Assembly: GCF_900156885.1 (NCBI RefSeq)
Contig: NZ_FTOY01000010.1
Coordinates: 248,001-312,000, forward strand
DNA: 64,000 nucleotides
Direction: 5' to 3'
Source: Limosilactobacillus caccae
Lineage (GTDB): Bacteria; Bacillota; Bacilli; Lactobacillales; Lactobacillaceae
Shown: positions 39,799 through 55,731 of the stretch, piece by piece
Position numbering within the stretch: position 1 is the first letter of the stretch
Layout: each line of letters opens with the position of its first letter
Made by a program: the position numbers and the translations under genes
Notes under the pieces: generated by a model
The model's database searches: none
The model's input: only the letters and a program-made list of their open reading frames with translations
Told to the model about the DNA's origin: nothing

Positions 39799-40296
39799 AT
39801 GCAACGAAAAAAGATCGTCGAAGCAATGAAAAATGTTTACTTTCAAAAAATGACCGCAACTGGTTATCACGAAATTGAAGAAGAGATTGCCCGCCTGCAA
39901 TCACAGCGGCCCGCAAAAATCGAACAGCTAAAGGCCGCCCGCGCCCTTGGTGATCTTTCTGAAAACACAGAATACAGCACGGCGAAGCGGGAACTGCGCC
40001 ATCTCGAAAGCCGCCTCCGCTACCTTAACAAGCAATTACAGTACGCCCAGATTGTCGAGCCAAGCGACGATAACACAGTTGATCTCGGCACCACCGTCAC
40101 CCTTAAATTTACCGATGACGATGACCAAGAAGTCTACCACATCGTCGGCAAGCAAGAAGCAGATATTGCGAAACAAAAAATCTCCTTTGATTCACCGCTA
40201 GGAAAAGCCATCATGCACCAGCCGGCCGGGAAAGTTGTTACGGTGAACGCCCCGCAATCAGCTTACCAGGTTGAAATTATCAAGGTCGAAGTTTAA
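39799..40296 (+). CDS. GreA/GreB-family transcription elongation factor
   Basis: 165 aa. The N-terminal coiled coil contains the GreA tip GDLSENTEYSTAKRE, with the acidic residues that stimulate RNA cleavage by backtracked polymerase; the FKBP-like C-terminal domain carries SPLGKAIMHQPAGKVVTV. It has a 20-residue N-terminal extension compared with housekeeping GreA and is probably a second paralog. The start ATG at 39799 follows GGAAGGAG. Confidence 0.87.
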   Translation: MQRKKIVEAMKNVYFQKMTATGYHEIEEEIARLQSQRPAKIEQLKAARALGDLSENTEYSTAKRELRHLESRLRYLNKQLQYAQIVEPSDDNTVDLGTTVTLKFTDDDDQEVYHIVGKQEADIAKQKISFDSPLGKAIMHQPAGKVVTVNAPQSAYQVEIIKVEV

Positions 40297-40304
40297 CTTT
40301 TTTC

Positions 40305-40367
40305 TTGCATCATTAATCATGACCCGCTATACTATTAAAGTTGCGTTTTTGACACAAGATATTGTGT
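40305..40367 (+). promoter_or_regulatory. pnuC promoter and 16-bp palindromic operator
   Basis: -35 TTGCAT (40305-40310) and -10 TATACT (40328-40333) are spaced 17 bp. ACACAAGATATTGTGT (40352-40367), a perfect 6-bp inverted repeat around GATA, starts about 12 nt after the start point. A niacin-responsive repressor such as NiaR is a reasonable candidate. Confidence 0.6.
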
Positions 40368-40418
40368 TTAAAGACGATTTCAAGAGAGAAAAATCTATAT
40401 GTAGTGGGAGAGTTGATT

Positions 40419-41174
40419 ATGATTAGCAATTATCTAAAGTTTTTAGGTCACCAATTAAAGGGCTGGCCCCAACAAAACTATTACCTGTTCTTCTTTAGTC
40501 TTGGCTGCCAAGTCATGACCCTGGTAAACGCACCAATTACCTGGGTGACAGTCATTACTTTTATCGGGACTACCCTCGGGGTATTATGCGTCCTCGCAAT
40601 CAACGCAGCAAAGTCCGTTAACGGTTTCCTGGGGATCCTTTCTGCTATCTGCTTTATCATTGCAGGTTACAGTGCCAAGAATTACCTCAGTATCGCGGAA
40701 CAGATTGCTTACGTAATCACGCTTGACTTGCCAGTCCTGCTTTCTGCTAACTGGAATGTCAACATGGCGTCTAAGATCCGCCAGTTTACTGGCCGCTCAT
40801 GGGCCGTCGCCATTGTTTCCACCATCCTGGTCTACCTGGTGTCTGGTTACTTAATCGGCACCCTGACTGATGATCCGCGGCCATGGATTGATGCGATTAG
40901 TTTCTCAATTAGCTTGAGTGCCGGGGTTATTTGCTTCCTGCGGTTCAACAACCAATACTTCTGGTGGCTGGCTTCAGGAATTGCTCAGCTAGTCCTTTGG
41001 TTTGTTTCATTCCGTCAAGGGTCAGCAACCTTAGCAATGGCGATTAACAGTTCCATTTACGTTATCAACGATGTCCTCGCCTTTACCATCTCCCCATGGT
41101 ACAACGAACGCGAGCGGCAACGGCTCAGCAAAGAAGAATCAATTTATGCCAAGCAATTAGGCTTGGAGAAATAG
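40419..41174 (+). CDS. pnuC: PnuC-family nicotinamide riboside/mononucleotide transporter
   Basis: 251 aa with about seven helices and the PnuC motifs NNQYFWWLASGIAQLVLWF and the INSSIYVINDVLAF end. Facilitates uptake of nicotinamide riboside for NAD synthesis in bacteria that cannot make niacin. The start ATG at 40419 follows GTGGGAG; an in-frame ATG at 40362 falls inside the operator. Single gene ending in a terminator. Confidence 0.88.
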   Translation: MISNYLKFLGHQLKGWPQQNYYLFFFSLGCQVMTLVNAPITWVTVITFIGTTLGVLCVLAINAAKSVNGFLGILSAICFIIAGYSAKNYLSIAEQIAYVITLDLPVLLSANWNVNMASKIRQFTGRSWAVAIVSTILVYLVSGYLIGTLTDDPRPWIDAISFSISLSAGVICFLRFNNQYFWWLASGIAQLVLWFVSFRQGSATLAMAINSSIYVINDVLAFTISPWYNERERQRLSKEESIYAKQLGLEK

Positions 41175-41208
41175 AAAAAGAGGTCGAAAAAAATGCGGCC
41201 TCTTTTTT
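41175..41208. terminator. Bidirectional terminator (pnuC / aldo-keto reductase)
   Basis: AAAAAGAGGtCG-N9-CGgCCTCTTTTTT between convergent genes. Confidence 0.88.
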
Positions 41209-41213
41209 GCTAT

Positions 41214-42059
41214 TTAATATTGCTTATTATACTCGTAAACTAACTCTGGCTCACGGCCTGTCCGGTGGTAGGCATTCAATGTTGCAATCTGCTTCATCTC
41301 TTCATCACTCAAGGTAAAGTCATAGATAGCGGCATTTTCTGCGATTCGTGCCTCGTGAACCGACTTGGGGATAAACGACACCCCATTTTGCAAGTGCCAA
41401 CGGAGGATGACCTGGGCAGGTGACTTCCCGTGCTTAGCGGCGATTGTCTTAATAACATCTTGACCAATTACTGCGCCCCGGCCAAGCGGACTCCAAGCCT
41501 GGGTGACAATGTGGTGGTCCCGGTTAAACTGAACCAGTGGCATTTGGGACAGCAGTGGGTGCAGCTCAATCTGGTCAATGACTGGCATTTCATTGGCCTG
41601 GGTCGCTAAGTATTGCAAGTGGATCATCTGGAAGTTGCTTACCCCGATTGACTTAGTCAGGCCCGCCTTTTTCATTTCTTCAAATGCCCGCCAGGTATCA
41701 AAGAATGAACTTTCAATCGGCCAGTGAACCAGCAGCAAGTCAACATAGTCCATTTGTAGCTTTTGCAGTGACTCCTTTACCGAATCAATTGCCGCTTGGT
41801 AGCCCTGGTTTTCTTCGGCAACCTTTGTCGTCACAAAGATCTTTTCCCGGGGAATCGCTAACTTCTTAACGGCGTTCCCGACTTCCTTTTCGTTGCCGTA
41901 CAGTTGGGCAGTGTCAAACAAGCGGTAACCTTCTGCGTAAGCTTTAGCAATCGCCGTATCCATCGTTTCCTGCCCTACCACCTTATAAAGGCCGAACCCT
42001 TGTTGGGGCATCTTATTCCCGTCTGCCAGGGTTAAGAGATTGTCTTGAATGTCCATCAT
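41214..42059 (-). CDS. Aldo/keto reductase
   Basis: 281 aa NADPH-dependent reductase of the AKR5/2,5-diketo-gluconate reductase type. The catalytic tetrad is visible: Asp and Tyr in FDTAQLYGNE, Lys in FVTTKV, His in LLVHWP. GVSNFQ and IPKSVHEARI bind NADPH. Substrate cannot be told. Divergent from the two-component system at 42174. Confidence 0.92.
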   Translation of the reverse strand: MMDIQDNLLTLADGNKMPQQGFGLYKVVGQETMDTAIAKAYAEGYRLFDTAQLYGNEKEVGNAVKKLAIPREKIFVTTKVAEENQGYQAAIDSVKESLQKLQMDYVDLLLVHWPIESSFFDTWRAFEEMKKAGLTKSIGVSNFQMIHLQYLATQANEMPVIDQIELHPLLSQMPLVQFNRDHHIVTQAWSPLGRGAVIGQDVIKTIAAKHGKSPAQVILRWHLQNGVSFIPKSVHEARIAENAAIYDFTLSDEEMKQIATLNAYHRTGREPELVYEYNKQY

Positions 42060-42173
42060 GTCGCACTCCTTTTTCCTTTATCATCAAGTAATTAGTGCTG
42101 ATTGTCAAACAAAAACATTCTTTTTCTCCCCTGCCTAGGTTATGATTAACTTAACTTTAATCGCGAGGTAAGT

Positions 42174-42857
42174 ATGATGACAAAAGTCTTTATTGTTGAA
42201 GATAATCCAGAGTTGATTAAATCAATTACAGCGGCCTTAACGAAATGGCAGTACGCAACAGTAACAGTTGACGATTGGCAAACCGTGGCTGATGAGATTG
42301 TGACCGCTGCCCCGGACCTCGTCCTGTTTGACATCACCCTCCCCAGTTTCGACGGGTTTTACTGGATGCAAGAGGTCCGCAAACATAGCCAGGTGCCAAT
42401 CATTGTCATTTCCGCAGCGGACATTGACAGCAACGTAATGCACGCGGTCGCTGCTGGGGCTGATGATTACATCATGAAGCCTTTCTCCATGACCGTCCTA
42501 GTAGCAAAAGTCCAGGCCCTCCTTCGCCGCAACCAACAGACTAGCGAGGAAGAGGCAATTGAGTGGGGGGCAAACACCTTCAACTCCCTAACCAACCGGC
42601 TGACAACTCCTGCCGGCACGGTTCAACTCACCCCCACCGAGGGCGCACTGCTCCAAGTACTTATCAGCCATCACCAGCAAACCGTCGCTAAAGAGCGCCT
42701 GCTTGAGTGGCTCTGGCAAGGTGGCAAATACCTTAACGATAACACCCTCAACGTCAATATCAGCCGTCTGCGCGCAAAGTTAGCAACAGTTGGCCTAACT
42801 GACGCGATCAGAACTGAGCGGGGGATCGGTTACCGGCTGGTGAATCCTAATGAATAA
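42174..42857 (+). CDS. OmpR-family response regulator (BceR-like)
   Basis: 227 aa. Receiver domain with phospho-acceptor Asp53 (LVLFDITLPS) and Lys in IMKPFS, followed by a winged-helix DNA-binding domain ending in TERGIGYRLV. It overlaps the kinase gene by 8 nt. With the BceAB-like ABC genes downstream it should switch on peptide-antibiotic resistance. Confidence 0.92.
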   Translation: MMTKVFIVEDNPELIKSITAALTKWQYATVTVDDWQTVADEIVTAAPDLVLFDITLPSFDGFYWMQEVRKHSQVPIIVISAADIDSNVMHAVAAGADDYIMKPFSMTVLVAKVQALLRRNQQTSEEEAIEWGANTFNSLTNRLTTPAGTVQLTPTEGALLQVLISHHQQTVAKERLLEWLWQGGKYLNDNTLNVNISRLRAKLATVGLTDAIRTERGIGYRLVNPNE

Positions 42858-43824
42858 GCGAACATTTCTTATCCTATTTGGCCGCGCCATCGCCCCGGTC
42901 ACCCTGTGCTACCTCTTACTTATTTTCCTTGCCGGCCTATTGGTAGTCCTCTATAATTTGCCGCTCCTCTTTTTCGGTGACCTCCTTCGTTTTTCCCTCC
43001 CTGTCCTCGGTGGCTGGCTCATCTTTGCCTTCTACCGCACCCGGCAACGTTATAAAAAACTTCACGCAAAGGACGCTATCAGCCCCAACAATCCGGTTGA
43101 AGCCGCGCTTATCACCCTCCTAACAGCGGAAAAAGCTACTGCAAAATCAACCATCCGTGACCTCCACTTAAAGCAGCAACAACAATTTGACCACCTCGAA
43201 TTATTTGCCCACGAGATCAAAAACCACCTTGCAACCCTTACTGCCGCGGCGGAAAACCAGGACCAAGTGGCAAGCACCGATGTCAAAGAAGCCGTCCGCC
43301 ACGCCAACTACTACCTTGACCTGCTCCTTAGCGATGAACGGCTGGCGATGGAAGGCAATGACTTTGCCTTTCAGTGGATCGACTTAGCTGCCCTAGTCAA
43401 TGACGTCCTCCAGCAAAACTCCGCCCTCTTTATTCACAAGCAACTTATCCCCCAACTTCACCAGCTTACCGGGGTGCGGGTTTTGACTGACCCCAAGTGG
43501 CTGCGCTTTTGCATTGCCCAGCTGCTCTCAAATGCAATCAAGTATTCCCAGCCAAACCAAACGATCCATATTTCCTGGGAAATAAACCAACTGCACATCA
43601 TCGACCACGGTTGCGGGATCCCCAGCACCGACCTGCCGCGCATTTACGATAATGGCTTTACTGGTCATAACGGCCATCAAACTACCCTGTCAACCGGGAT
43701 GGGCCTCTACCTGGTGAAGAAAGTTGCCCAGCAGTTAAATTACCAGCTTAGCGTGACCTCCGCGGTTAATAAGGGAACCACGGCAACATTAACTTTTACG
43801 CCGGCCAATGTCCGCCAGCGATAA
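42850..43824 (+). CDS. Intramembrane-sensing histidine kinase (BceS-like)
   Basis: 324 aa. Two N-terminal membrane helices (about residues 12-36 and 45-62) with almost no extracellular loop, as in BceS-type kinases that sense through the ABC transporter. The H-box is FAHEIKNHLATL with His121; the ATPase domain has SNAIKYSQ (N box), IDHGCGIP (G1) and STGMGLYLVK (G2). Translationally coupled to the regulator gene. Confidence 0.92.
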   Translation: MNKRTFLILFGRAIAPVTLCYLLLIFLAGLLVVLYNLPLLFFGDLLRFSLPVLGGWLIFAFYRTRQRYKKLHAKDAISPNNPVEAALITLLTAEKATAKSTIRDLHLKQQQQFDHLELFAHEIKNHLATLTAAAENQDQVASTDVKEAVRHANYYLDLLLSDERLAMEGNDFAFQWIDLAALVNDVLQQNSALFIHKQLIPQLHQLTGVRVLTDPKWLRFCIAQLLSNAIKYSQPNQTIHISWEINQLHIIDHGCGIPSTDLPRIYDNGFTGHNGHQTTLSTGMGLYLVKKVAQQLNYQLSVTSAVNKGTTATLTFTPANVRQR

Positions 43825-43835
43825 GCTGCTATCTT

Positions 43836-43897
43836 ACAAAACTGTAAGGTTCTGCACACTTCTGTAAGTAGGAAGTGGCGCAGAACCTTTTTATAAT
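43836..43897 (+). promoter_or_regulatory. Terminator-promoter region between kinase and ABC genes, with response-regulator-type repeats
   Basis: A strong hairpin, AAGGTTCTGC (43846-43855) against GCAGAACCTT (43880-43889) with inner CACTTC/GAAGTG, is followed by TTTT. Overlapping it are CTTACA-aaac-TGTAAG (up to 43848) and a second TGTAAG at 43863-43868, 20 bp apart, then a perfect TATAAT (43892-43897) with no -35. This fits a regulator-activated promoter for the ABC genes. Confidence 0.6.
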
Positions 43898-43940
43898 AAC
43901 TACAAGAACAAAAGATAACCGTAACGAAAGGATAATCATC

Positions 43941-44696
43941 ATGGCTCTATTACAACTACACCACGTTCAACGGGTGTTCAACCAACATTCAACTAACCCT
44001 GTCATGGCACTGAAGGACATCAGTTTTACCGTCGAGAACGGGGAATTTGTCGCAATCATGGGTGAATCCGGGGCTGGGAAGAGTACCCTCCTCAACATCA
44101 TTGCCACCCTTGACCAGGCAACTGGTGGGCAAGCAGTCCTAAATGGCCAAGACCTAGGACAGTTATCAAAGGATGAAGCAGCGAAATACCGGCGAGAACA
44201 TCTCGGCTTTGTTTTCCAGCACTTTAACCTGCTCGACAGCCTCTCCAACCGGGATAACATCTATCTCCCACTAGTGCTCGCAAAAACTCCTGTCAAGCTA
44301 ATGGACGACCGCTTGACTCCCTTAGCGGCCCGTCTCCGAATTGATTCAATCGTCGACCGCTTCCCTAGTGAAGTATCCGGTGGTCAGCAGCAACGAATCG
44401 CAATTGCCCGCGCACTAATTACCAATCCCGACCTCCTACTAGCCGATGAGCCGACCGGGGCACTGGACTCAAACACCAGTAACGAAATTCTGACCCTCTT
44501 TGACGATGTCAACCAAAACGGGCAAACCATCATCATGGTTACCCACAGTGCTGCCGCCGCCAGTCACGCTAAGCGAACTCTTTTTATCAAGGATGGCCGC
44601 ATCTACCATGAGCTTTACCGGGGCGACCTCTCGGCAAAGGAATACCAAGAGCAAATTAATCAGACAATGATGACCCTCACGAATGGTGGTGAATAA
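43941..44696 (+). CDS. ABC transporter ATP-binding protein (BceA-like)
   Basis: 251 aa of the MacB/LolD-type ATPases. Walker A GESGAGKS (41-48), signature VSGGQQQRIAIARAL, Walker B LLLADEPTGALDS and switch His in MVTHS are intact. The start ATG at 43941 follows GAAAGG. It pairs with the 641-aa permease 2 nt downstream. Confidence 0.93.
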   Translation: MALLQLHHVQRVFNQHSTNPVMALKDISFTVENGEFVAIMGESGAGKSTLLNIIATLDQATGGQAVLNGQDLGQLSKDEAAKYRREHLGFVFQHFNLLDSLSNRDNIYLPLVLAKTPVKLMDDRLTPLAARLRIDSIVDRFPSEVSGGQQQRIAIARALITNPDLLLADEPTGALDSNTSNEILTLFDDVNQNGQTIIMVTHSAAAASHAKRTLFIKDGRIYHELYRGDLSAKEYQEQINQTMMTLTNGGE

Positions 44697-44698
44697 GG

Positions 44699-46624
44699 AT
44701 GCTCTTCTTCAAATTAATCAACTCGAGTTTTAAACGTAACCGCAAGATTTACTTGCCATACCTAATTTCGATGGCGATGCTGGTTGCGATTAATTATATT
44801 TTTAAGGCGATTGCTGTTAACCGTAGCATCAAAAAGCTCCCGAGCGGCAGTATCACCGGGGCACTGATGGATACCGGATCAACCTTTATTATCCTCGTGA
44901 CCCTTGCCTTCATGGTCTACATCAACCGCTTCCTCTGGCAACAACGTCACCAGGAAATGGGCCTCTACAGTATGCTCGGGATGACCAGCCATCATTTACG
45001 GATATTGATGGTGATTGAAAAGCTTTACCTGCTGGTCATTAGTCTGACGGCTGGTTTTGCGACCGGGATCATCTTTGACCGGCTGGCCTTCCTTGGTTTT
45101 GCCCGCCTGCTAAATATCAAGCACCTAAGCCAGCCGTGGATTGAATGGTCCGCACTGGGAAACACCTGCTTAATCATCGGTGGCTTTTTCTTGCTCCTGG
45201 TGATTATTGATCTTGTTAAGTTGATCCGGCTCAATCCGGCGGAACTCTGGCATCCCCGTAAGTCAACCGTTACTAAACACGGCACCGTCTTTACTGTTGC
45301 CGGAATTCTCGGGATGGTCGCTGTTGCCTGGGCCTACTACCTGACCCTAACTGTCAAGCCGCGGATGTCCGCCTTATCAACCTTTATGTTAGCAGTCGTC
45401 CTCGTTGTTGTCGGCACTTACCTATTATTCATCGCCGGTAGCATCATCGTCTTACAACTGCTTCAAAAGAATAAACGCTACTACTACCAGCCCCGCCACT
45501 TTATTGCTGTCTCGGGCATGTTACAGCGGATGGAACAAAACGGGGCCAGCCTCGCCACAATCTGCTTGCTGTGCAGCTCCGTTTTAGTCATCCTCTTTGG
45601 TTCAATTACCCTGTATCTTGGGATTGATAGTACCGTCCGTTCCTGGGCACCCCGGGAGGTGACGATCGTTAGCACAGCCCCGTTAAATGCTAGCCAAAAC
45701 AAAACTATCAAACAGGTAGCTAACGAGCACCAGGCAACTCTCGGTCACCAAGTTAGCTTTAATACCAGCACCCCCCAATACGGCTACTGGCAAAAGAACC
45801 ACTTTATTAACCAGGGCGGCCTTGACCGGATGACCAATAATACTACTAGTTCAGTAATTTTCATCAGTGCAAAGACGTACCAGCAGCTGACCAAGGACAA
45901 GGTTCAACTGGCAAATGATGAAGCACTCTTCTATTCACCAGCTACAAAGCTAACTGGCAGCCTACAAATTGGCAACCGCACGTATAAGGCAAAGCAGCTC
46001 AAGCACTTTGACTACTACCTCAATCCAAGTCACTCAATCTATTCACCGGTTTTTCTCGTGGTCAACAAAGTGCCAGCCAAAATGGGCACCACCACCATCA
46101 CTACCTTTAATTACCAGCTAACCGGCAGCGTGGAAAAGAAGGCGCAGTTTGAACAGGCATTACAAGATAAACTCCAAGTACCTAACTTAGGCTTCACCGG
46201 CTACCACATCGTCCATAACCTCCTCACCCAACTTTATGGTGGAATTGTCTTCGTCGGTATCTTAATCAGCCTCGCCCTGGGGATCACCACCACCGTCGTG
46301 ATCTACTTCAAACAGATTACTGAAGGTTACGAGGACCAGCAACGCTTTAAGACAATGCAGCAAGTCGGCTTAAGTGAACGGGAGACAACTAGAAGCATCC
46401 ATAGTCAGGTTCTGATGGTCTTTCTCCTGCCAGTCATCGGCGCCGTGGTCAACCTTGGCTTTGCCATTCCAGCCATCCGCCAAATCATGATCCAATTTGG
46501 TTTTTATAACACCCAGCTAATGATGACTGTTGCGATAACGATTACCATCATTCTCCTGCTGGCATACCTCCTTATCTATGGTCTCACTACCCGGGTCTAT
46601 CGCCAGATCGTCGACCAAGCCTAG
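44699..46624 (+). CDS. BceB-type ABC transporter permease
   Basis: 641 aa with the FtsX/BceB layout: ten predicted helices and a large extracellular domain (about residues 300-515) between helices 7 and 8. The KTMQQVGLSERETTRSIHSQ coupling segment near residue 555 is typical. It recognises or frees lipid II-binding peptides and signals to the intramembrane kinase. Immediately follows the ATPase gene. Confidence 0.92.
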   Translation: MLFFKLINSSFKRNRKIYLPYLISMAMLVAINYIFKAIAVNRSIKKLPSGSITGALMDTGSTFIILVTLAFMVYINRFLWQQRHQEMGLYSMLGMTSHHLRILMVIEKLYLLVISLTAGFATGIIFDRLAFLGFARLLNIKHLSQPWIEWSALGNTCLIIGGFFLLLVIIDLVKLIRLNPAELWHPRKSTVTKHGTVFTVAGILGMVAVAWAYYLTLTVKPRMSALSTFMLAVVLVVVGTYLLFIAGSIIVLQLLQKNKRYYYQPRHFIAVSGMLQRMEQNGASLATICLLCSSVLVILFGSITLYLGIDSTVRSWAPREVTIVSTAPLNASQNKTIKQVANEHQATLGHQVSFNTSTPQYGYWQKNHFINQGGLDRMTNNTTSSVIFISAKTYQQLTKDKVQLANDEALFYSPATKLTGSLQIGNRTYKAKQLKHFDYYLNPSHSIYSPVFLVVNKVPAKMGTTTITTFNYQLTGSVEKKAQFEQALQDKLQVPNLGFTGYHIVHNLLTQLYGGIVFVGILISLALGITTTVVIYFKQITEGYEDQQRFKTMQQVGLSERETTRSIHSQVLMVFLLPVIGAVVNLGFAIPAIRQIMIQFGFYNTQLMMTVAITITIILLLAYLLIYGLTTRVYRQIVDQA

Positions 46625-46641
46625 CAGCCAAGCTTTTTTGT

Positions 46642-46670
46642 TTGACATTTCTGATTTAACCGGTTACACT
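46642..46670 (+). promoter_or_regulatory. Promoter of the cysteine operon leader
   Basis: Perfect -35 TTGACA (46642-46647), 17-bp spacer, -10 TACACT (46665-46670). Predicted start near 46677, giving a leader of about 205 nt before the first structural gene. Confidence 0.8.
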
Positions 46671-46715
46671 CAAACTACTATAAAGTAAGTACGGTTAGAT
46701 ATGGGAGATGTAGTT

Positions 46716-46775
46716 ATGAAAAAGTTACTGCAACCAAATCTGCAAAATTACCTATCACTAACAAGCTGTTGTTAA
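46716..46775 (+). CDS. Cysteine attenuation leader peptide, 19 aa
   Basis: ATG at 46716 with GGGAGA (46703-46708) upstream encodes MKKLLQPNLQNYLSLTSCC and stops at 46773-46775. The last two sense codons are TGT TGT (46767-46772), both cysteine, directly followed by TAA. The codons TGT-TGT-TAA form exactly the 9-nt loop of a hairpin (46758-46784). Next comes an anti-terminator/terminator pair and then a MetA-like gene and cysteine synthase. This is the arrangement of a leader-peptide attenuator responding to cysteinyl-tRNA supply. Too short for default gene finders. Confidence 0.8.
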   Translation: MKKLLQPNLQNYLSLTSCC

Positions 46776-46850
46776 GCTAGTTAGGCGGCTTTTTTCGCTG
46801 CCTTATTTTGTCGTGGTCTCGACCATGATAAGCTTAATGACGGCTTTTTT
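46758..46850 (+). promoter_or_regulatory. Alternative hairpins of the cysteine attenuator
   Basis: Segment 1:2 is CTAAC-a-AGC (46758-46766) with GCT-a-GTTAG (46776-46784). Segment 2:3 is AGGCGGC (46783-46789) with GCTGCCT (46797-46803). Segment 3:4 runs from GCTGCC (46797) to GACGGC (46839-46844) with a 12-bp inner stem (46807-46818/46821-46832), and ends in T6 (46845-46850). Ribosome stalling on Cys codons would cover segment 1, free 2 to pair with 3, and prevent the 3:4 terminator. Confidence 0.7.
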
Positions 46851-46881
46851 GTTTTGACTTCAAATAATCGAGGTGTTTTTC

Positions 46882-47709
46882 GTGAATCAGATGGTCCTTA
46901 ACGTCGGAATCCTTAACCTAATGCATGATAAAGTTGATACGCAACGGCGGTTTTCGACCGTCCTTAATGAAGGTGACTATGATGTCAACGTGCAATACTT
47001 CTACCCGCAGACGCACTACCAAAACCGGCCCGTGCCCACACTTGTCCAGCAAATATCCCAACCACTAGTACTCGACCAGCTAGACCAGTTTGATGCTTTC
47101 ATCATCACTGGTGCACCGCTTGAGCAATTACCATTTAACGACATTACCTATATTGACGAGGTCCACCAGTTGATTGACCAGCTCGGTAAGCTCGCCATCC
47201 CTCAGCTCTACGTCTGCTGGGGAGCGATGGCCGCGGCGAACTACCTTTACGGGGTACAAAAGTATCAGCTACCGGAAAAGATATTTGGTGTCTTTGCCAA
47301 CTACCGCCACCATAACGATCCTTTCCTCACTGGTCTGCCAGACGGTTTCTTAGCACCCCATGCCCGGTACGCCGAGCTTGATGTTAACGCCATTAAGGAA
47401 AACCCTGAATTGACGATTACCGCAACAACCAAGGATAACCGGCTCTTTTCGTTTAGTGCGTTACACAAGAAACAATACTTTTTATTTTCACACCTCGAAT
47501 ATGGCCGCGATGCCTTGTTAAAAGAATACCGCCGGGAGCGTAATGCCCACCCAGAAAGAGACTACCTTAAACCGCAAAATTACTTCCGTGATCCGCTTCA
47601 TATGAAAGATCCCGAGTTCAAGTGGGCTAAGACCCGCCGCGTGTTCTTTGATAACTGGCTACAATACGTTGCCCATGATGTAAAAGAACGACAATTAGTA
47701 AAGGAGTAG
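46882..47709 (+). CDS. MetA-family acyltransferase of the cysteine operon (probable serine/homoserine O-acyltransferase)
   Basis: 275 aa, homoserine O-succinyltransferase (MetA) fold. The nucleophile is Cys112 in [16 protein letters not shown] and the His204-Glu206 pair is in FSHLEYGRD. The likely start is GTG at 46882, 8 nt after GAGG. It lies 5 nt before cysK and behind a Cys-codon leader, so I infer that it makes the O-acylserine substrate of cysteine synthase, replacing CysE, rather than serving methionine. Direct homoserine activity remains possible. Confidence 0.82.
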
Positions 47710-47714
47710 ATACT

Positions 47715-48638
47715 ATGACCACAATTGCAAATTCCATCACCCAATTAATCGGTAACACCCCCCTCGTTAAGTTAAACCGGGTCGTTCCCGAAGACGCTGC
47801 CGACGTATACGTAAAGCTCGAATTCTTTAACCCCGCTGGCTCCATCAAGGACCGGATCGCTCTGGCGATGGTTGAACAGGCGGAAAAAGATGGCAAGTTA
47901 ACTGCCGGGGGGACGATTATCGAACCAACTTCCGGTAACACCGGGGTTGGCCTCGCAATGGTTGCCGCGGCGAAGGGCTACCATTTGGTAATCACGATGC
48001 CAGAAACGATGAGTGTTGAACGGCGGAAGTTAATGCAGGGCTACGGGGCAGAATTAATTTTGACCCCGGGAGCTGACGGAATGAAGGGCGCCATCGCTAA
48101 GGCCGAAGAATTAGTGAAGGAAAAGGGCTACTTCATGCCAATGCAATTCGATAACCCCGCTAACCCGGCAATTCACGAACAGACAACCGGGAAGGAAATT
48201 TTGGCTGCCTTCGGGGACGTTACTCCCGATGCCTTTGTTGCTGGGGTCGGTACTGGTGGCACCCTGACCGGGATTGGTCACGCCTTGAAGAAGGCTGATC
48301 GCGACGTTGCCGTCTACGCCCTTGAACCGGCTGAATCACCAGTCCTCAAAGAAGGCAAAGGCGGCAAGCATAAGATCCAGGGGATTGCCGCTGGTTTTGT
48401 GCCGGAAGTTTTAGATAAGGACGTTTACGATGGGATCCTTGAAATCAAGAGTGACGATGCCATCGCAATGGCCCGTGAAGTTGCCCACAAGGAAGGAATC
48501 CTCGTCGGTATTTCTGCTGGTGCAAACATCAAGGGAGCCATTGAGGTCGCCAAGAAGCTTGGTAAGGGCAAGAAGGTTGTCACTGTCTCCCCTGACGGCG
48601 GTGACCGCTACCTTTCAACTGAATTATTTGATTATTAA
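47715..48638 (+). CDS. cysK: Cysteine synthase (O-acetylserine sulfhydrylase)
   Basis: 307 aa PLP enzyme. Lys45 in [11 protein letters not shown] binds [15 protein letters not shown] is the substrate/phosphate loop and GTGGTLTG holds the cofactor phosphate. Joins sulfide and O-acetylserine to give cysteine. Five nt separate it from the MetA-like gene; both share the leader with the attenuator. Confidence 0.95.
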
Positions 48639-48641
48639 TCA

Positions 48642-48677
48642 AAAGGGCTAAATCAATTTGCAGATTTAGCCCTTTTC
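48642..48677 (+). terminator. Terminator after cysK
   Basis: Perfect 10-bp stem GGGCTAAATC (48645-48654)/GATTTAGCCC (48663-48672) followed by TTTTCT. Confidence 0.92.
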
Positions 48678-48735
48678 TATTGCACATCCCCTTACGTAAT
48701 GTCCTACACTGGAGATACACAAGGAGGAATGGCTT

Positions 48736-49446
48736 ATGTACACAAGTGGTGAATTAGCAAGAAAATGCAATGTTTCGCGACGCACAGTTCAGTATTATGA
48801 CCAATGTGGTTTGCTGACGGCAAGCCGAACACCTACTGACCAACGCCAATATAACGACGCTGATGTTCAGCGGTTGCGAGAAATACTCGCTTACCGTAAT
48901 CTCGGCTTCTCATTAAAAGAAGTCAAAAGGATTATCACTAACCAAAACAGTAGCAAGTATTTACTATCACTAATTACTAGCCAGCAAGATAATCTTACAG
49001 ATAAAGTTGCCAAGCTTAACCAGCAAATTGCCAGTCTCGACTTCCTTAAAAAGCAGTTTAATAAGTATGGCTATTTCCCAGGAAATATTGCGGAAGGGGT
49101 GGCTTATCTAATGGATCAAGCACAACGTTTAAGAAGATTACGGATTAAAATGATTGTTATTGGACTAATCCTTGATATCTGCTTGTGGGGCAGCGTCTGT
49201 TACGTCGTTTTGCAAAAAGCTAATCTCTGGTACTTAGGAATTGGCTTAATCGTTAGTCTAATCCTTGGCTATTACATTACCATGACCTACTTCCACCATT
49301 CTTGCTACCTGTGTCCAAATTGCCACAGCACCTTTACCGTTCCATTTAAGAACTGGTTTTTCGCCAAGCACACGCCAAATACCCGGCACTTAAAATGTTC
49401 CCACTGTCATCAAGTGAACTACTGTATTGAAGAATTTAAAAAATAA
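48736..49446 (+). CDS. MerR-family regulator fused to two membrane helices and a zinc ribbon
   Basis: 236 aa. Residues 1-70 are a MerR helix-turn-helix (MYTSGELARKCNVSRRTVQY), 72-120 a coiled coil. Two membrane helices lie at about 138-158 and 163-182. A C-terminal ribbon has CPNC and CSHC pairs (CYLCPNCHST and LKCSHCHQ) likely to bind zinc. This is a membrane-anchored DNA-binding protein, so its signal is probably at the envelope. Single gene with AAGGAGG and its own terminator. Confidence 0.8.
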   Translation: MYTSGELARKCNVSRRTVQYYDQCGLLTASRTPTDQRQYNDADVQRLREILAYRNLGFSLKEVKRIITNQNSSKYLLSLITSQQDNLTDKVAKLNQQIASLDFLKKQFNKYGYFPGNIAEGVAYLMDQAQRLRRLRIKMIVIGLILDICLWGSVCYVVLQKANLWYLGIGLIVSLILGYYITMTYFHHSCYLCPNCHSTFTVPFKNWFFAKHTPNTRHLKCSHCHQVNYCIEEFKK

Positions 49447-49478
49447 AACACTTAGGAAAATTTCCTAGGTGTTTTTTG
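49446..49478. terminator. Bidirectional terminator
   Basis: AAAACACtTAGGAAA against TTTCCTAgGTGTTTTTT, between convergent genes. Confidence 0.9.
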
Positions 49479-49497
49479 TTACGGTGAGTTACTGATC

Positions 49498-50991
49498 TTA
49501 CAAAATCGGCGACAATAGCCGGGAGAAGTATTGCTTGAACTTCCGCCACTTACTCTGGTTAGCAAAGTATTCCGGCGTCAGTAGGGTACTCTTCTCAATG
49601 TCGTTCAAGAAGTCCTGCTTCAAGGTCGCCGTGAGCTTTTCGTTGTACGCAAAGGCGTTCACCTCAAAGTTAAGCCGGTAGCTCCGGTAGTCCATGTTGG
49701 CCGAACCAACGGAGGCAATGTTGCTGCCACTGACCATCGTCTTAGCGTGAATAAAGCCGTTATTGTACTTGTAAACCTTGACCCCGTTGTTGACCAGGTA
49801 CTTGGCATAGTACTCCGTTGCCCGGTAAACAAACGGGTGGTCCGGCATACATGGAATCATGATCCGGACGTCAATCCCACTCCGCGCCGCAATTACGAGC
49901 GCTTCGAGGACGGAATCTTCGGGGATCAGGTATGGTGACTGAATGTACACGTACTTGCGGGCAGAACTAATAATTGATTCATAGCCCCGCCGAATTGCGT
50001 AGTCCTCATTGTCCGGCCCCGATGAAACGATCTGCATTGGCACTGCTTCGGGATCATCACTCGGCTCATGCAATTCAAAGTTACTAAACTCTTTTTCTAG
50101 ACTAATCTTCTTTTTGCGGGTCTTGCGACAGGTGGTGTTCCAGTCCATCGCAAACCGTACTGTCATCATCATCGTTGCCTGGCCGATGACCCGCAGGTGG
50201 GTGTCACGCCAGTAACCAAACTTCGGTGCTTCCCCGAGGTACTGGTCACCGATGTTAAAGCCCCCGATATAACCAATCTGCCCGTCGATAATCGCTAACT
50301 TACGGTGAAGGTGGAAGTTTAACCGTGGCGTCTGGAAGTGTGCTTTCGGTGCGGCAACAAAGGCCTGCGCCTCACCACCGAGTTCTTCAAGGTGCTGAAA
50401 GAACTTATAGGTAGTCCCATGCGACCCGCTAAGGTCATATAAGACCCGCACCCGGACGCCCCGTTCTGCTGCCTTTTCAAGGGCTGCTAAAACGCGCTTC
50501 CCCAGATTATCAGAATAAAATGAGTAGTATTCAATATATACGTGGTCCTTGGCATGGTCGATATCATCGATTAGCTTGGCAAACTTTTCCTTTCCATCGG
50601 TAAAGACGTGGACCTTGTTGTCGAAGGTAGCAACCGACTCATTCAGGCTCATAAAGAGGTTTACGAGTTGCCGGTCCCGTGATAGGCGGTCCTGCTTCGG
50701 TAGTAGTTTGTGCTTTTCGACAAGCTTTTTTTGCTTTAGAAGGTACTTCTTTTCCAGTAGTTCCTGTTCATCTTGAATGCTAAAGATCTCATCGTGTGAC
50801 ATCTGCCGGCCGACGAAGAGGTAGAGGATAAAACCAACTACCGGAAAGACTGACAATACCAGTAGCCACGCCCAGGTAGATGCAATATCCCGCCGACTAC
50901 GGAAAACCGTCCAAATCGCAAAGCCAATATTGATTAGCCACAAAACTTCAATAATGCGACGAATAATGTCCCATGTCCAAATAATATTCAT
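49498..50991 (-). CDS. cls: Cardiolipin synthase (phospholipase D family)
   Basis: 497 aa. Two N-terminal membrane helices, then two HKD phospholipase-D motifs: HRKLAIIDGQIGYIGGFN and HAKTMVSGSNIASVGSANMD. Condenses two phosphatidylglycerols into cardiolipin at the membrane. Length and layout are those of the Bacillus ClsA type. Single gene. Confidence 0.94.
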   Translation of the reverse strand: MNIIWTWDIIRRIIEVLWLINIGFAIWTVFRSRRDIASTWAWLLVLSVFPVVGFILYLFVGRQMSHDEIFSIQDEQELLEKKYLLKQKKLVEKHKLLPKQDRLSRDRQLVNLFMSLNESVATFDNKVHVFTDGKEKFAKLIDDIDHAKDHVYIEYYSFYSDNLGKRVLAALEKAAERGVRVRVLYDLSGSHGTTYKFFQHLEELGGEAQAFVAAPKAHFQTPRLNFHLHRKLAIIDGQIGYIGGFNIGDQYLGEAPKFGYWRDTHLRVIGQATMMMTVRFAMDWNTTCRKTRKKKISLEKEFSNFELHEPSDDPEAVPMQIVSSGPDNEDYAIRRGYESIISSARKYVYIQSPYLIPEDSVLEALVIAARSGIDVRIMIPCMPDHPFVYRATEYYAKYLVNNGVKVYKYNNGFIHAKTMVSGSNIASVGSANMDYRSYRLNFEVNAFAYNEKLTATLKQDFLNDIEKSTLLTPEYFANQSKWRKFKQYFSRLLSPIL

Positions 50992-51071
50992 GCTATATTT
51001 CTCCCTAAAAGTATTACTGCATTATTATAGCCTTAATCGCCCCTTCTTTCAGCAATTCTCTATAAAAATGG

Positions 51072-52229
51072 TTATTTTCCGTAAACACGCCGCAATGCGA
51101 ACGCAAATACAATCGCCAAGACACCGTAAACCGCCCCAACATAGCCGAGGTTTTGTAAACTCGTGTAGTTAACCGTTGTGGAGGCGGTAAAAGAGCCATG
51201 GGAGATCCCCACGTTGGCAAAGATAGAGATCAAGGAAGTTGCCAAGGCAAGTGATTGCGGGTATTCCTGTTCCGCAACGTTAATAAATACCAACTGGGTG
51301 GTCGTCCCGTAGACAATTACTACCACGCAAAGGGCTGCCAAGGCGAGCATCCCCGTCAGTTTATTTTCAAGGGCGGGTCCCAGAATAAGGCTCAAAATCG
51401 TCATTAAAATAAAGATTCCCGGAAGTTTGTGAACACCGTGATGCCCCGCAACAAGACCGGCAATTTCATTCCCGATAATGCTCATTACCCCTAGAATTAG
51501 CAAAAGCCAGTTTAGGCTGGTCAAGCTAAAGCCCATCACCGTCGTAATCAGCGGCCGGACATAGGTGTAAAAGGTGTATTGTAAGCTCAATACGGAAACG
51601 GTGATCCCAATGCCAAGCAAAACTCGGCGATCCTTTAATAACGACAACTGCCCAACAATGCTTCCCTTAACCTGGGGCGTATCCCGCGGGGTTAACCAGG
51701 CCAGGAGCGCAAAGACGACCAGGGTCAAACCGGAGATAATCCAGAAGCTGTCATGCCAGGAAAGTAGGGTCGCAATGGTCGTCCCTAATGGTACCCCGAT
51801 AACCGAGGCAATGCTAAAGCCGGCACCAACCCAGGCTAGGACCATCGGCCGCTTGTTCATCGGCGTGATGATACTAACGAGGAGGTTGATGAGGGAAATA
51901 ATCGTCCCCGCTACGGCCGCGGTAATAACCCGGGCAAAGAGCAACCAGCCAAGTGACGGTGCCATCGCGGTCAAGGTATTACCAATGAAGAAGACCGTCA
52001 TTAAGATCATCAAGAGTTTGTACCGGTTCCAGTTGCTGGTCAAAGTAGTGATGACCGGGGTGCTAATCGCGTAAACCCCCGCAAAGGCCGTGACTAAAAA
52101 GCCGACCGTCGACAACGGAACGTGGTAGCTTTTGGCAATATCGGATAAGACCCCCACGACCATGAATTCGTTGCAGCCTAACATGAATGCAACGAGGATA
52201 AAAGTAAATGAGCGTAACTTTTCACGCAT
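51072..52229 (-). CDS. MFS efflux transporter, DHA1 (AraJ/YdhP-like)
   Basis: 385 aa, 12 helices. GCNEFMVVGVLSDIAKSYHV in helix 1 and RVITAAVAGTIISLINLLV (motif C region) are typical of the sugar/drug efflux DHA1 group. Substrate unknown. The ATG at 52229 follows AAAGGAGG. Confidence 0.88.
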   Translation of the reverse strand: MREKLRSFTFILVAFMLGCNEFMVVGVLSDIAKSYHVPLSTVGFLVTAFAGVYAISTPVITTLTSNWNRYKLLMILMTVFFIGNTLTAMAPSLGWLLFARVITAAVAGTIISLINLLVSIITPMNKRPMVLAWVGAGFSIASVIGVPLGTTIATLLSWHDSFWIISGLTLVVFALLAWLTPRDTPQVKGSIVGQLSLLKDRRVLLGIGITVSVLSLQYTFYTYVRPLITTVMGFSLTSLNWLLLILGVMSIIGNEIAGLVAGHHGVHKLPGIFILMTILSLILGPALENKLTGMLALAALCVVVIVYGTTTQLVFINVAEQEYPQSLALATSLISIFANVGISHGSFTASTTVNYTSLQNLGYVGAVYGVLAIVFAFALRRVYGK

Positions 52230-52328
52230 TATTAAACCTCCTTTAAAATAAAAAATTTTCTGGAAATAAGGCAATCCAGAAAATTATAAACGTTCAGCAA
52301 ACCAATGCCAATAGTTTTGAAAGATTTA

Positions 52329-52832
52329 TTAATGAATTTGCTCCTGATATGCCGCAAATGTGTGGTCATCAAAGCAGACCATCGTTACCTGGTCAACATA
52401 TTTGGCACTTTGGAGGAAGTCGGTGATCGTCGCAATTGCAATCTTAGCGGCCCGGTCAAGGGGGAAGGCATAGACGCCCGTACTAATTGATGGAAAAGCG
52501 ACCGTCTGGCAATGGTTTTGTTCTGCCAAAGCAAGGCTATTATGGTATGAATTTGCCAGCAGTTGGTCCTCCCCATGCGTGCCACCATACCACACGGGGC
52601 CCGGCGTATGGATAATGAATTTTGCTGGCAAGTTAAAGCCCCCTGTGATCCGCGCTTCACCAGTGGGGCAGCCATGAAACTTCTCACAGGCAGCATACAA
52701 CGCTGGCCCCGCAGCCCGGTGAATCGCCCCATCAACGCCGCCACCGCCCATTAAAGTCGTATTGGCCGCGTTAACGATCGCATCTACGTTTACCTTTGTG
52801 ATATCGCCCTTAATTACGTTGACCTGTGTCAT
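52329..52832 (-). CDS. Macrodomain protein, O-acetyl-ADP-ribose deacetylase type
   Basis: 167 aa. IVNAANTTLMGGGGVDGAIH is the ADP-ribose-binding loop of MacroD/YmdB proteins, and AFPSISTGVYAFPLDRAA is the second loop. Removes acetyl from O-acetyl-ADP-ribose or mono-ADP-ribose from proteins. It starts 2 nt after the stop of the membrane XRE gene and should be translated with it. An ATG at 52871 lies inside that upstream gene and is not preferred. Confidence 0.9.
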   Translation of the reverse strand: MTQVNVIKGDITKVNVDAIVNAANTTLMGGGGVDGAIHRAAGPALYAACEKFHGCPTGEARITGGFNLPAKFIIHTPGPVWYGGTHGEDQLLANSYHNSLALAEQNHCQTVAFPSISTGVYAFPLDRAAKIAIATITDFLQSAKYVDQVTMVCFDDHTFAAYQEQIH

Positions 52833-52834
52833 TG

Positions 52835-53473
52835 TTAATTCTTCCTTTCTTTGAATTGGGGATAGAGCCAAATGGCGTAAGTAAGTGCAAGCGCCTTGAA
52901 AGCCGTTACCGCGCCCGCTCCAAAGCCATTACCAAATCCTCTCGCACCACCAGAAAAAGCCGTCACGACATCAAGCTTAATAAGCAGGATTGAGATAACA
53001 ATCAATGTTAAATGAATTCCGACCTTATTAACCCCACTAATCTTCTTCCAGTTAATTTGTGATATTAGATAATACACATTAATTGTTGCTAGAGCTAAGA
53101 AGCAACCAATAATTACTTTCCAACCACTCCATAATGACGGAATGAATTTTAATAATCCTAATGCCAGCAACAATATATAAACACAAGCGGCAGCATTAAT
53201 GATATATGAAATGGTAAATGCCCAATCCTTTTTAGCGTTAAGTTTATGCTCTTTTTCATATGAATCAATCATTTCGTGATCCTCCCGTAATAAATCGTCT
53301 AAACTAACATGGTAGAGATCACTTATTTGCACCAACATGAATACATCGGGATAACTCCGCCCATTTTCCCAGCTGGAAATTGTCTTTCGTGAGACAAGAA
53401 GCCGGTCAGCCACGTCCTGCTGGGTCCACTGGTACCGTTGCCGGTAACTTTTCATTTTGTCCGCAAACTTCAC
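52835..53473 (-). CDS. XRE-family regulator with C-terminal membrane region
   Basis: 212 aa. Residues 5-60 form an XRE helix-turn-helix (TQQDVADRLLVSRKTISSWE), followed by a linker and about four membrane helices. The start is GTG at 53473 with GGAGAG. A promoter within the 86-bp repeat (53502-53587) lies just upstream. A paralog with the same layout is at 59372-59986. It probably controls the coupled macrodomain gene or an envelope response. Confidence 0.85.
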   Translation of the reverse strand: MKFADKMKSYRQRYQWTQQDVADRLLVSRKTISSWENGRSYPDVFMLVQISDLYHVSLDDLLREDHEMIDSYEKEHKLNAKKDWAFTISYIINAAACVYILLLALGLLKFIPSLWSGWKVIIGCFLALATINVYYLISQINWKKISGVNKVGIHLTLIVISILLIKLDVVTAFSGGARGFGNGFGAGAVTAFKALALTYAIWLYPQFKERKN

Positions 53474-53501
53474 TAAGCTCTCCTACCTTCTTTGCCTTGA
53501 A

Positions 53502-53587
53502 TTTATTTCCCGGGAAATCTAAGCTTGCTATCAATGTAGCGGAAATACCAGAAAATGTCACGCTAAGAATGGTGGACAACTAAAAAA
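53502..53587 (-). repeat. 86-bp repeat, copy 1 (promoter-bearing)
   Basis: Differs from copy 2 (55965-56050) at four of 86 positions. Read on the minus strand it contains GTGACA, 17 bp, TACATT (a -35/-10 pair) and inverted arms TAGCG/CGCTA around the spacer, plus the palindrome TTTCCCGGGAAA downstream. It sits just before the membrane XRE gene. Confidence 0.85.
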
Positions 53588-53613
53588 GCCTCCCGGTTCG
53601 AGAGGGGCTTTTT
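53582..53613. terminator. Terminator upstream of repeat copy 1
   Basis: AAAAAAGCCTCCC-N7-GAGGGGCTTTTT; insulates the XRE promoter from the lipoprotein gene region. Confidence 0.7.
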
Positions 53614-53720
53614 CATAAGCTTATGCCATTCAATGTATAGTAAGATGATTAATGAATCTCGCATCGTAGAAATATAATTTCCTTATATACCAAAATATTA
53701 GTGTAACTTCTCAATAAAGA

Positions 53721-54521
53721 TTAGTTAAGCTGTGCTAATCCACCCTCATTTATTGGCTCTTCATCTTCATCGTCTCTATAGATTTCGGAAACATTTAATT
53801 TTAAATTATTAACAGTGAATTTTTCATTGCTAATCATATACATCGTTCCTGCTCGGTGTTGTTTAGGAGCAATTTTACTACCACCTACAACGGTATCATA
53901 GTAGTAACTATCAGCACTGCCACCATCTTGGTATTCTGTTCCATTATCATCCGTAGGAGTCCAACTAGTAGTTTGAACATCAACAGGTTGATCACTATTA
54001 TTACGAACTTCATAATTAATTACTACTTGGTAATAGTGTTTTCCTAATGAGGCATAGTTATCCATGTTATAAAGAGCGTCATTACTAGGCTCTTTAGTCT
54101 TGGTCATTGCTTCATACCTAATTGATTTAATTTTAAATTGTAGTGGGCCAACTGAGTTTGTTGCTTTATTTAGAGTGACTTCATAGGGTTTAACCGTTAC
54201 AGGCAACTTCTTAGTAACATGACCATTATCACTTTTAGCAATAATGGTGTATTTCCCAACCTTGTTAAATTTTATCTCTGCTTTTCCACTTTTAGTCTTA
54301 CGCATCCCTTGTACGTCGTTACCCTTACTATTTTGTACTTCATATTGAGTATTTTTATTTGCTTTTAATTTCACGGTTGCAGTGTAATCTGGTTCCATCA
54401 TAATGCTACTTTTATTAAGACTTGCCTTAAACTCTTTTCCATGACTATCTTTAGTCCCACAAGCAGCCAAGCCCAATGTCAGTAATATTATCACTGGCAT
54501 CAACAATAATTTCTTCTTCAT
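53721..54521 (-). CDS. Lipoprotein with DUF5067/DUF4352-like C-terminal domain
   Basis: 266 aa. Signal peptide with lipobox LAAC (Cys21), so anchored outside the membrane. Residues 30-115 look like an Ig/Big-like beta domain (VGKYTIIAKSDNGHVTKKLP); about 120-255 resemble the immunoglobulin-like DUF5067/DUF4352 fold (YYQVVINYEVRNNSDQPVDV). Ligand unknown. AT-richer than the core genes. Confidence 0.8.
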   Translation of the reverse strand: MKKKLLLMPVIILLTLGLAACGTKDSHGKEFKASLNKSSIMMEPDYTATVKLKANKNTQYEVQNSKGNDVQGMRKTKSGKAEIKFNKVGKYTIIAKSDNGHVTKKLPVTVKPYEVTLNKATNSVGPLQFKIKSIRYEAMTKTKEPSNDALYNMDNYASLGKHYYQVVINYEVRNNSDQPVDVQTTSWTPTDDNGTEYQDGGSADSYYYDTVVGGSKIAPKQHRAGTMYMISNEKFTVNNLKLNVSEIYRDDEDEEPINEGGLAQLN

Positions 54522-54564
54522 TCAAAAAACTCCTCTACAAGAATAAATAAAAAATGCACAAAAG

Positions 54565-54604
54565 AAAAGGACAATCAGCGCCATCCCGTCGGTTGTCCTT
54601 TTTT
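54565..54604. terminator. Terminator between lipoprotein and DUF3278 genes
   Basis: AAAAGGACAA and TTGTCCTTTT(TT) arms with a GC-rich loop; can act on both strands. Confidence 0.75.
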
Positions 54605-54741
54605 AAGTAATTTAATTTTATCATAACGGTATATTTTAGAGCTATCTAAATTTTAGACAAATCTCTTTTAAAACTAAACTTTTCTCAATTTATCAATGTT
54701 AAAGATTACTAATTCTAAATAACTTAATGCAACTAACCATT

Positions 54742-55365
54742 TTAACTGTGTATCAGCAACAGCGCTACAATGATAATAATGACTAGAACAATTAACCAAC
54801 CCTTTAATGGTAATCGTTTCGTCGGTGTACTATTACCGTCTGGTTCAATTTTAATTTGATGTAGCTCAACAAGCCCCGTCGCTAAGCCAAAAATAATTCC
54901 TTCGATCACCGCAAGGACAATCATAAATGGATCAGTTAGTAAAGGAAGCAGTGCTCCCCTTTCTGGTAACCAATCGATAAGAATTGTCATTCCATACATT
55001 CCAAACCCAAAGTAGAGACCAAGTCCGACTGCTTTTTTGATGATCTTTTTCTTAGTCCTTGTTACCTGCTTTGCTTCCACATCAATATCGGCTAAGTGGT
55101 GACGCTTAAGTTCATAACAGATATATGCATAAGTCGCAAAGATAATAAATAGCAATGAATCTACGACAATATCAAGGGCAAGCTCATAATTATTAGTGCC
55201 GAGAACCACAAGGGTAGCAGTGAACGCTAATATTAAATTAACTGAAAGTAAAAAGATCGCAATATTATTACCAATTCGATTAACCTCATTACGCCGGTAT
55301 TCATCAAGCGGACCGTGAATACCATAAAACCACTTAATAATTTTCGTTCCAGCTGTTTCTTTCAT
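54742..55365 (-). CDS. DUF3278 family membrane protein
   Basis: 207 aa. The N-terminal IIKWFYGIHGPLDEYRRNEV is the DUF3278 signature; five or so membrane helices follow. The start ATG at 55365 follows GGGAGG, 5 nt after the XRE stop. DUF3278 genes usually follow a small XRE regulator, as here. Function unknown. Confidence 0.85.
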   Translation of the reverse strand: MKETAGTKIIKWFYGIHGPLDEYRRNEVNRIGNNIAIFLLSVNLILAFTATLVVLGTNNYELALDIVVDSLLFIIFATYAYICYELKRHHLADIDVEAKQVTRTKKKIIKKAVGLGLYFGFGMYGMTILIDWLPERGALLPLLTDPFMIVLAVIEGIIFGLATGLVELHQIKIEPDGNSTPTKRLPLKGWLIVLVIIIIVALLLIHS

Positions 55366-55370
55366 GTTTA

Positions 55371-55559: not shown

Positions 55560-55731
55560 ATATCAATCACCCCTAATGTCATATATATCTGACATTTATT
55601 GTGAACAGCATATCATCGCCAACCTTAGATGTCAATTATATATGACACAAATTGTAAAAACACCTTGAACAAAACAGCTGACGCTGACCTATCCCTCAGC
55701 GACACAAGAAATAAGGAACAGCTTACTAGAT

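Follow-up and report, generated by a model that had tools for sequence, protein, structure and literature searches.

We find that a short leader ahead of a MetA-like gene and cysK in the window (the whole 64,000-nucleotide stretch of Limosilactobacillus caccae DNA analyzed here) is best read as a ribosome-mediated transcription attenuator sensing charged cysteine tRNA, a reading to which we give a probability of about 85%. It rests on the anatomy of the leader, its conservation, coupled base changes, its gene context, and folds computed with a masked ribosome footprint. Leader-peptide attenuators are a known kind of regulator, and what is new here is one whose regulatory codons form an arm of the terminator.

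The original prediction had placed at this site a consensus promoter, a ribosome-binding site, a 19-codon ORF ending in TGT TGT TAA, and a T6 tract, all of which were found on the sequence (Table 1), downstream of an FtsX-type permease gene that ends at 46624. The leader ORF is preceded by a Shine-Dalgarno (SD) site and carries Cys codons matching the operon, and an intrinsic terminator lies between it and the first gene. Promoter-like sites are not rare as such (2 found in the region versus 3.0 expected); the leader finding stands above chance because it recurs in related species, not because of the promoter site. The MetA-like gene and cysK that had been proposed to follow the leader were borne out by matches to the Pfam and TIGRFAM-type models PF04204 and TIGR01139. 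For the MetA-like gene, the likeliest start is GTG 46882 behind the SD sequence GAGGTG at 46870-46875; the start given by the ORF tool, GTG 46873, sits within this SD sequence and was rejected. Despite its Pfam HTS match, the MetA-like protein falls far under the cut-offs of MetA models, and the L. paracasei gene that carries the metA annotation reportedly codes for a serine acetyltransferase (PMC6004538, in the passages drawn on here, after Bogicevic 2016). By analogy, the protein in the window is probably a serine acetyltransferase as well. Since the HTS match lies below the MetA cut-offs, cysK comes next, and the L. paracasei metA provides a precedent, the operon probably consists of a cysE-like gene and cysK, encoding both steps from serine to cysteine.

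Table 1 Features of the leader region and operon, in window positions
Feature	Position	Strand	Details
Sigma-70-type promoter TTGACA-17-TACACT	46642..46670	+	-35 at 46642-46647, -10 at 46665-46670; 10/12 consensus
Leader ORF ribosome-binding site GGGAG	46703..46707	+	8 nt ahead of ATG 46716
19-codon leader ORF MKKLLQPNLQNYLSLTSCC, stop TAA	46716..46775	+	SD-preceded
Regulatory codons TGT TGT and stop TAA	46767..46775	+	Doubles as core of terminator 5′ arm
P1 5′ arm of terminator, Cys-Cys-stop inside	46763..46778	+	Folds and alignment
P1 3′ arm of terminator, runs into U-tract	46831..46846	+	Folds and alignment
Inner spacer hairpin (2:3 of the original prediction)	46783..46803	+	-11.1 kcal/mol
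Second inner spacer hairpin	46809..46830	+	Folds
T6 tract, intrinsic terminator	46845..46850	+	Read from sequence
MetA/HTS-family acyltransferase gene	46882..47709	+	PF04204, E 1.2e-61
cysK, cysteine synthase A	47715..48638	+	TIGR01139, 451.5 bits versus cut-off 350.95
MerR gene 3′ of cysK	48736-49446		

When the leader (46677-46858) was folded, it reached -55 kcal/mol, compared with -38.0 kcal/mol (sd 4.1) in 200 dinucleotide shuffles, none of which folded as well (z -4.15). The winning fold is a 16-bp helix, P1, formed by the two arms listed in Table 1 and enclosing both inner hairpins; the whole terminator amounts to -40.9 kcal/mol. In this model, the Cys-Cys-stop codons pair directly with the last terminator arm, and a separate antiterminator would be unneeded because the ribosome itself would cover one arm of the terminator.

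To place the leader among its relatives, we searched the genus for the MetA-like protein, which was present in 39/50 genomes, and read the best 30 loci, window included, as cysK-type. An SD-preceded leader (match of at least 4 bases in every counted case) with at least two consecutive Cys codons was found in 25 of these best 30 loci, with lengths of 14 to 27 codons, and in 21 of the 30 it ends in Cys-Cys-stop or Cys-Cys-Cys-stop. No such leader was found at the remaining five (L008, L024, L028, L029, and L030); at L008, inspection by eye showed cysK directly preceding the HTS gene and a shortened MerR-type ORF before cysK. Promoter sites of at least 9/12 consensus accompany 24 of the 25 leaders, versus 293 of 1000 mononucleotide-shuffled windows. 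Our alignment (A1; 21 rows, 20 distinct, window included) comprises the leaders ending in Cys-Cys-stop and omits the five leaderless loci and L025, L026, L027, and L031, whose leaders end otherwise. N-terminal leader residues vary among these 21 relatives, and the terminal Cys run is common to all.

The P1 helix is kept in 21/21 of the aligned leaders, and the RNAalifold consensus consists of P1 and nothing else. Across the 20 distinct leaders, 95.0% of P1 cells are paired versus 90.0% in shuffles, with 0/500 shuffles as high and 0/500 reaching the covariation score, counts that overstate significance in that the rows are related and not independent. Sliding the P1 partner by 1 to 3 columns lowered pairing to 22.7-65.1%. 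Pairs altered on both sides (3/13; 43/500 shuffles as high) are not unusual, and the count of further pair types is ordinary (450/500). At pair 89-168, which involves the wobble base of the last Cys codon, the 20 distinct rows show C-G in 9, U-A in 7, U-G in 3, and no pair in 1. Wobble changes at this codon are thus synonymous for cysteine and compensated in the terminator arm. The original prediction had suggested looking in relatives' leaders for conserved Cys codons and compensatory changes. Part of the conservation of these codons in the genus may stem from their role in pairing. The spacer between the arms measures 43-65 nt in 19/21 leaders and is variable in sequence, and the stem is followed by a T-tract in 19/21. 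In L012 and L014, the P1 stem is retained some 110 nt before the HTS gene, with a 16-nt spacer and no U-tract; their control may be translational or Rho-dependent.

By eye, the leader ribosome site AGTGGTCC of L017-L022 is the inverted repeat of GGTCCACT just before the Cys codons, a pairing that could shut the leader start when the leader is untranslated. A covariance-model search for the leader across 396 genomes of the family (E 0.05, with stricter filters, so that absence elsewhere is weak evidence) matched 12/396, 8 of them in the genus. The matches outside it were read as chance: L040 and L041 are ordinary terminator hairpins, L041 lying behind a metK-like gene on the opposite strand, and L042 and L043 were judged from inspection of the sequence alone.

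The original prediction had described a different RNA, a classical trp-type attenuator with mutually exclusive 1:2, 2:3 (antiterminator), and 3:4 (terminator) hairpins. The window does allow all three pairings (-10.0, -11.1, and -17.2 kcal/mol, respectively), and the 2:3 hairpin forms when a ribosome covers the Cys codons; this much of the claim stands. However, 3:4 is far weaker than the P1 terminator (-17.2 versus -40.9 kcal/mol), and it is P1, which the prediction did not name, that wins. Nor are the nine nucleotides of Cys-Cys-stop exactly the 1:2 loop, which folds as 7 nt, as T46767 and A46775 can pair. A 1:2 hairpin with Cys-Cys-stop in its loop occurs in just 2/21 leaders, the window (L002) and L003, with L004 forming a local hairpin in a different register; the consensus structure recovers P1 alone as the conserved terminator, and the 21 aligned leaders show no conserved antiterminator competing with it. 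We consider a trp-like set of three exclusive hairpins unlikely for this leader, even though six other loci, described below, allow the segment that follows the Cys codons to pair with the terminator's 5′ side.

For the attenuator built on P1, the position of the ribosome decides in silico whether the terminator forms. We masked 31 nt with the A site on the penultimate Cys codon and compared the resulting folds. P1 formed in 20/21 leaders without a mask, in 0/21 when the ribosome sat on the Cys codons, and in 21/21 when it sat five codons upstream. Thus, in folding with a masked ribosome footprint, a check that the original prediction had proposed, the terminator is lost in 21/21 leaders once the Cys codons are occupied, and in these folds stalling would matter there but not at a position five codons before. 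Translation, stalling, timing, and a cysteine response in the species would then fit together as follows. RNA polymerase would make the 19-codon leader, with a ribosome translating close behind. When Cys-tRNA is ample, the ribosome would pass UGU UGU, end at UAA, and leave before the polymerase reaches 46850; the freed Cys-Cys-stop stretch would pair with 46831-46846, and the terminator formed at the U-tract would switch the operon off. When Cys-tRNA is short, the ribosome would pause with its A site on a Cys codon and its footprint over the 5′ arm of the terminator. With this arm blocked, no terminator would form and transcription would continue into the serine acetyltransferase-like gene and cysK. 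Because its length is kept in 19/21 leaders while its sequence varies, the structured spacer of 43-65 nt probably buys the ribosome time to finish and leave.

Amino-acid genes of lactobacilli are usually treated as T-box genes. We found no T-box (RF00230) when window positions 40000-56000 were compared with Rfam, which gave four weak matches, all below the gathering score. Likewise, 0/30 of the best cysK-type loci, window included, had any Rfam match at E 0.001, and on these scans a T-box or other Rfam element was rejected for the window and these loci. The core of the original prediction, a Cys-codon leader-peptide attenuator for a cysteine operon, is accordingly supported by the conserved leader, promoter, and terminator and by the lack of a T-box match in these scans. 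Distant HTS paralogues in the same genus behave differently. We took 16 of 21 paralogue rows (L133-L148, 26-33% identical; three rows of G008 and one each of G026 and G022 were left out) with 700 nt upstream of each. None of the 16 had a Cys leader within this distance, and all 16 had a T-box on the gene's strand with E below 1e-11, 4 of them above the gathering score. Because T-boxes accompany 16/16 paralogues and Cys leaders 25/30 of the best cysK-type loci, the sensor differs between two branches of the same enzyme family within a single genus.

The Cys leader is not confined to the window's genus. Using protein alignment, a search of named genomes gave at least 79 loci, of which 68 were taken as Lactobacillaceae by title and similarity, including L084, which is labelled as another genus. 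These named loci (L044-L122) overlap in species with L003-L031, so that the counts are not additive. Within 600 nt upstream, we scanned for SD-preceded ORFs of 6 to 40 codons with two or three consecutive Cys codons (CC or CCC). Among the matches listed, a CC leader precedes 40/68 Lactobacillaceae loci versus 0.031 expected per 0.6 kb, as calibrated on 50 such ORFs in 965 kb, both strands, elsewhere in the 79 listed loci; for CCC, the figures are 32/68 versus 0.002. The leader is present at L048, a locus from L. reuteri. None of the 11 loci listed from outside the Lactobacillaceae had a CC leader within 600 nt, and the same holds for 28/68 listed Lactobacillaceae loci, where L111 has its leader further up, before the operon, and the upstream sequence of a few loci is shorter than 600 nt. 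Because no leader was detectable at 5/30 of the best genus loci and 28/68 of the named ones, other controls exist by these detection criteria. A gathering-score scan of 40 of the 79 listed loci found two T-boxes (L070 and L080), both downstream of the HTS gene. The expectation that a cysteine attenuator would be a fresh system in lactobacilli therefore needs amending: a Cys-codon leader is supported, but it is not a lone case, as homologous operons of several Lactobacillaceae genera have one.

Outside the window's genus, the leaders differ in their tails, with ...SCCCVV... in Companilactobacillus, ...TCCCGL... in Lactobacillus, and ...YCCC-stop in Agrilactobacillus. At L058, L061, L073, L080, L084, and L111, pairing is possible between the segment following the Cys codons and the terminator's 5′ side (-20 to -43 kcal/mol), making these six loci candidates for a classical antiterminator layout on the folding model. 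Candidate antiterminators are named for these six only, as the automatic terminator finder gave implausible hairpins elsewhere (for instance at L070, L078, L091, and L097). In L111, from a metagenome-assembled genome, the order is leader, synthase, Cys/Met lyase, and HTS protein. At L094 (2562-2907), L095 (2655-2951), L091, and L097, we observed tandem short ORFs. The first ends in Cys-Cys-Cys-stop; the second has its start within the terminator tail, behind an SD site, and ends in Cys-Cys or right beside it in L094, L095, and L097. This arrangement looks like two leaders in a row.

Conserved tails could also point to a small peptide with a function of its own, or to an arrest peptide responding to a signal other than Cys-tRNA, since residues after CCC are conserved in Companilactobacillus and Lacticaseibacillus too. 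Yet the 21 relatives of the window share the terminal Cys run and vary in their N-terminal residues, and the conserved tail at several other loci falls partly within candidate antiterminator arms; we regard this explanation as very improbable.

RNA-seq of the cysK2-ctl1-cysE2 operon of L. paracasei indirectly supports the predicted rise in read-through when cysteine is short. According to the passages of PMC6004538 drawn on here, its expression is about eight times higher in cysteine- than in methionine-deficient medium (log2 -2.9 to -3.2), with high 5′-UTR coverage, premature termination, and no T-box. The same passages place AAGGGCGCGAAA-N16-TTTCGCGCCCTT within a predicted terminator, call the mechanism "yet to be discovered," and contain no description of a leader peptide by the authors (PMC6004538). 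We found the published palindrome pattern in 5/396 Lactobacillaceae genomes, all of one genus, which is not Lacticaseibacillus: that assignment was rejected when an L. zeae protein matched 0/24 genomes of that genus at E 1e-100. Its matches were the L. zeae genome and four genomes near it, in a different genus, which is Lacticaseibacillus. In all 5 palindrome-bearing genomes, an SD-preceded Cys-Cys-Cys leader stands just upstream and the palindrome coincides with a hairpin followed by T5 behind the leader. Downstream, 4/5 have a synthase-like ORF that is intact and then the beginning of a lyase-like ORF, whereas the synthase-like frame is split in L124; the synthase of L125 belongs to the PALP family. 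Within Lacticaseibacillus itself, a close relative of the cysK2-type synthase (69-83% identity) was found in 5/30 genomes, and a Cys-Cys-Cys leader precedes the cysK2-ctl operon in 5/5 of these. The exact palindrome pattern occurs in 0/30 Lacticaseibacillus genomes; L151 comes nearest, with a single mismatch: behind its leader MTQSMFNAINCCCRTTLFWRCSAC lie AAGGGCGCGAGAATTCTG...TTTCGCGCCC and T5. L152 and L153 carry a further long inverted-repeat-like stretch, GAGTTTTACCAAGC...GCTTGGTAAA, between the leader's terminator and the synthase gene. Judged from these Lacticaseibacillus relatives, related Cys leaders may explain the cysteine response of L. paracasei.

Control could also lie with a DNA-binding regulator at a palindrome, a mode that Liu 2012 reportedly proposed for cystathionine genes in lactobacilli (according to the passages of PMC6004538 drawn on here), and a palindrome does stand upstream of the related operon in L. 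paracasei and 5 genomes of one other genus. In those 5 non-Lacticaseibacillus genomes, however, it is in every case a hairpin followed by T5 behind a Cys leader, and the pattern has no match in the window's genome, so that we hold such a regulator to be more doubtful still. The least credible proposal is that the conserved element is nothing more than an intrinsic terminator whose sequence happens to yield the short ORF: the Cys codons do coincide with a paired arm in the window's genus, but SD-preceded consecutive Cys codons persist in other genera where the terminator hairpins lie further downstream, and CCC ORFs occur far above the 0.002 expected per site among the listed loci.

Because the Cys run persists while the RNA design changes between genera, comparison of the sequences argues that the Cys codons themselves are under selection. 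Taken together, we think it likely that Lactobacillaceae share an unrecognised ribosome-read cysteine leader at cysE-like/cysK operons, which would come in two builds and would also explain the premature termination at L. paracasei cysK2-ctl1-cysE2. One build (Lacticaseibacillus, Lactobacillus, and L. mucosae) would have a separate terminator and a candidate antiterminator. The other, found in part of Limosilactobacillus, would be minimal, with Cys-Cys-stop serving as the 5′ arm of the terminator and a single helix acting as both sensor and switch. A cysteine response left unexplained in print thereby gains a mechanism that can be tested, and the leader in the window shows how small a leader-peptide attenuator can be.

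In searches of the open literature, judged by title and abstract, we found no report of Cys leader peptides in Lactobacillaceae. Canestrari reportedly described, in 2020, polycysteine short ORFs of mycobacteria. Several known systems share features with the leader proposed here. Like it, T-boxes (RF00230) sense tRNA charging and control termination in lactobacilli, but the window and 29 relatives have no match to them, and sensing there would be via the ribosome. Histidine leaders of bacilli are likewise leader-peptide attenuators of Firmicutes that replace T-boxes; they differ in amino acid and genes (hisS/hisZ), and the passages of PMC2965389 drawn on here gave no cysteine case. The actinobacterial cys/cbs leaders resemble ours in having Cys runs near the stop of a short ORF before cysteine genes (PMC1262725, in the portions used). 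For the mycobacterial regions, those portions report no conserved terminator hairpins and suggest Rho, unlike the conserved intrinsic terminator of the window (PMC1262725). As far as the passages of PMC6004538 go, L. paracasei cysK2-ctl1-cysE2 shares with the window a cysteine operon with a serine acetyltransferase gene, premature termination, and no T-box, and operons of its type differ in having the terminator hairpin apart from the Cys codons. The closest layout is that of uORFC-8-2 upstream of cysS in Rhodobacterales, which, in the passages of PMC8632094 drawn on here, is a uORF with two tandem Cys codons in the first stem and an end U-run, for which ribosome stalling was proposed to allow read-through. 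The leader in the window likewise has two Cys codons in a stem and an end U-run, whereas uORFC-8-2 belongs to Alphaproteobacteria, precedes a cysteinyl-tRNA synthetase gene, and follows a two-stem model (PMC8632094, same passages). The likeness to what those passages describe is one of layout only; in the window, the terminator arm itself contains Cys-Cys-stop, and it stands ahead of cysteine biosynthesis genes.
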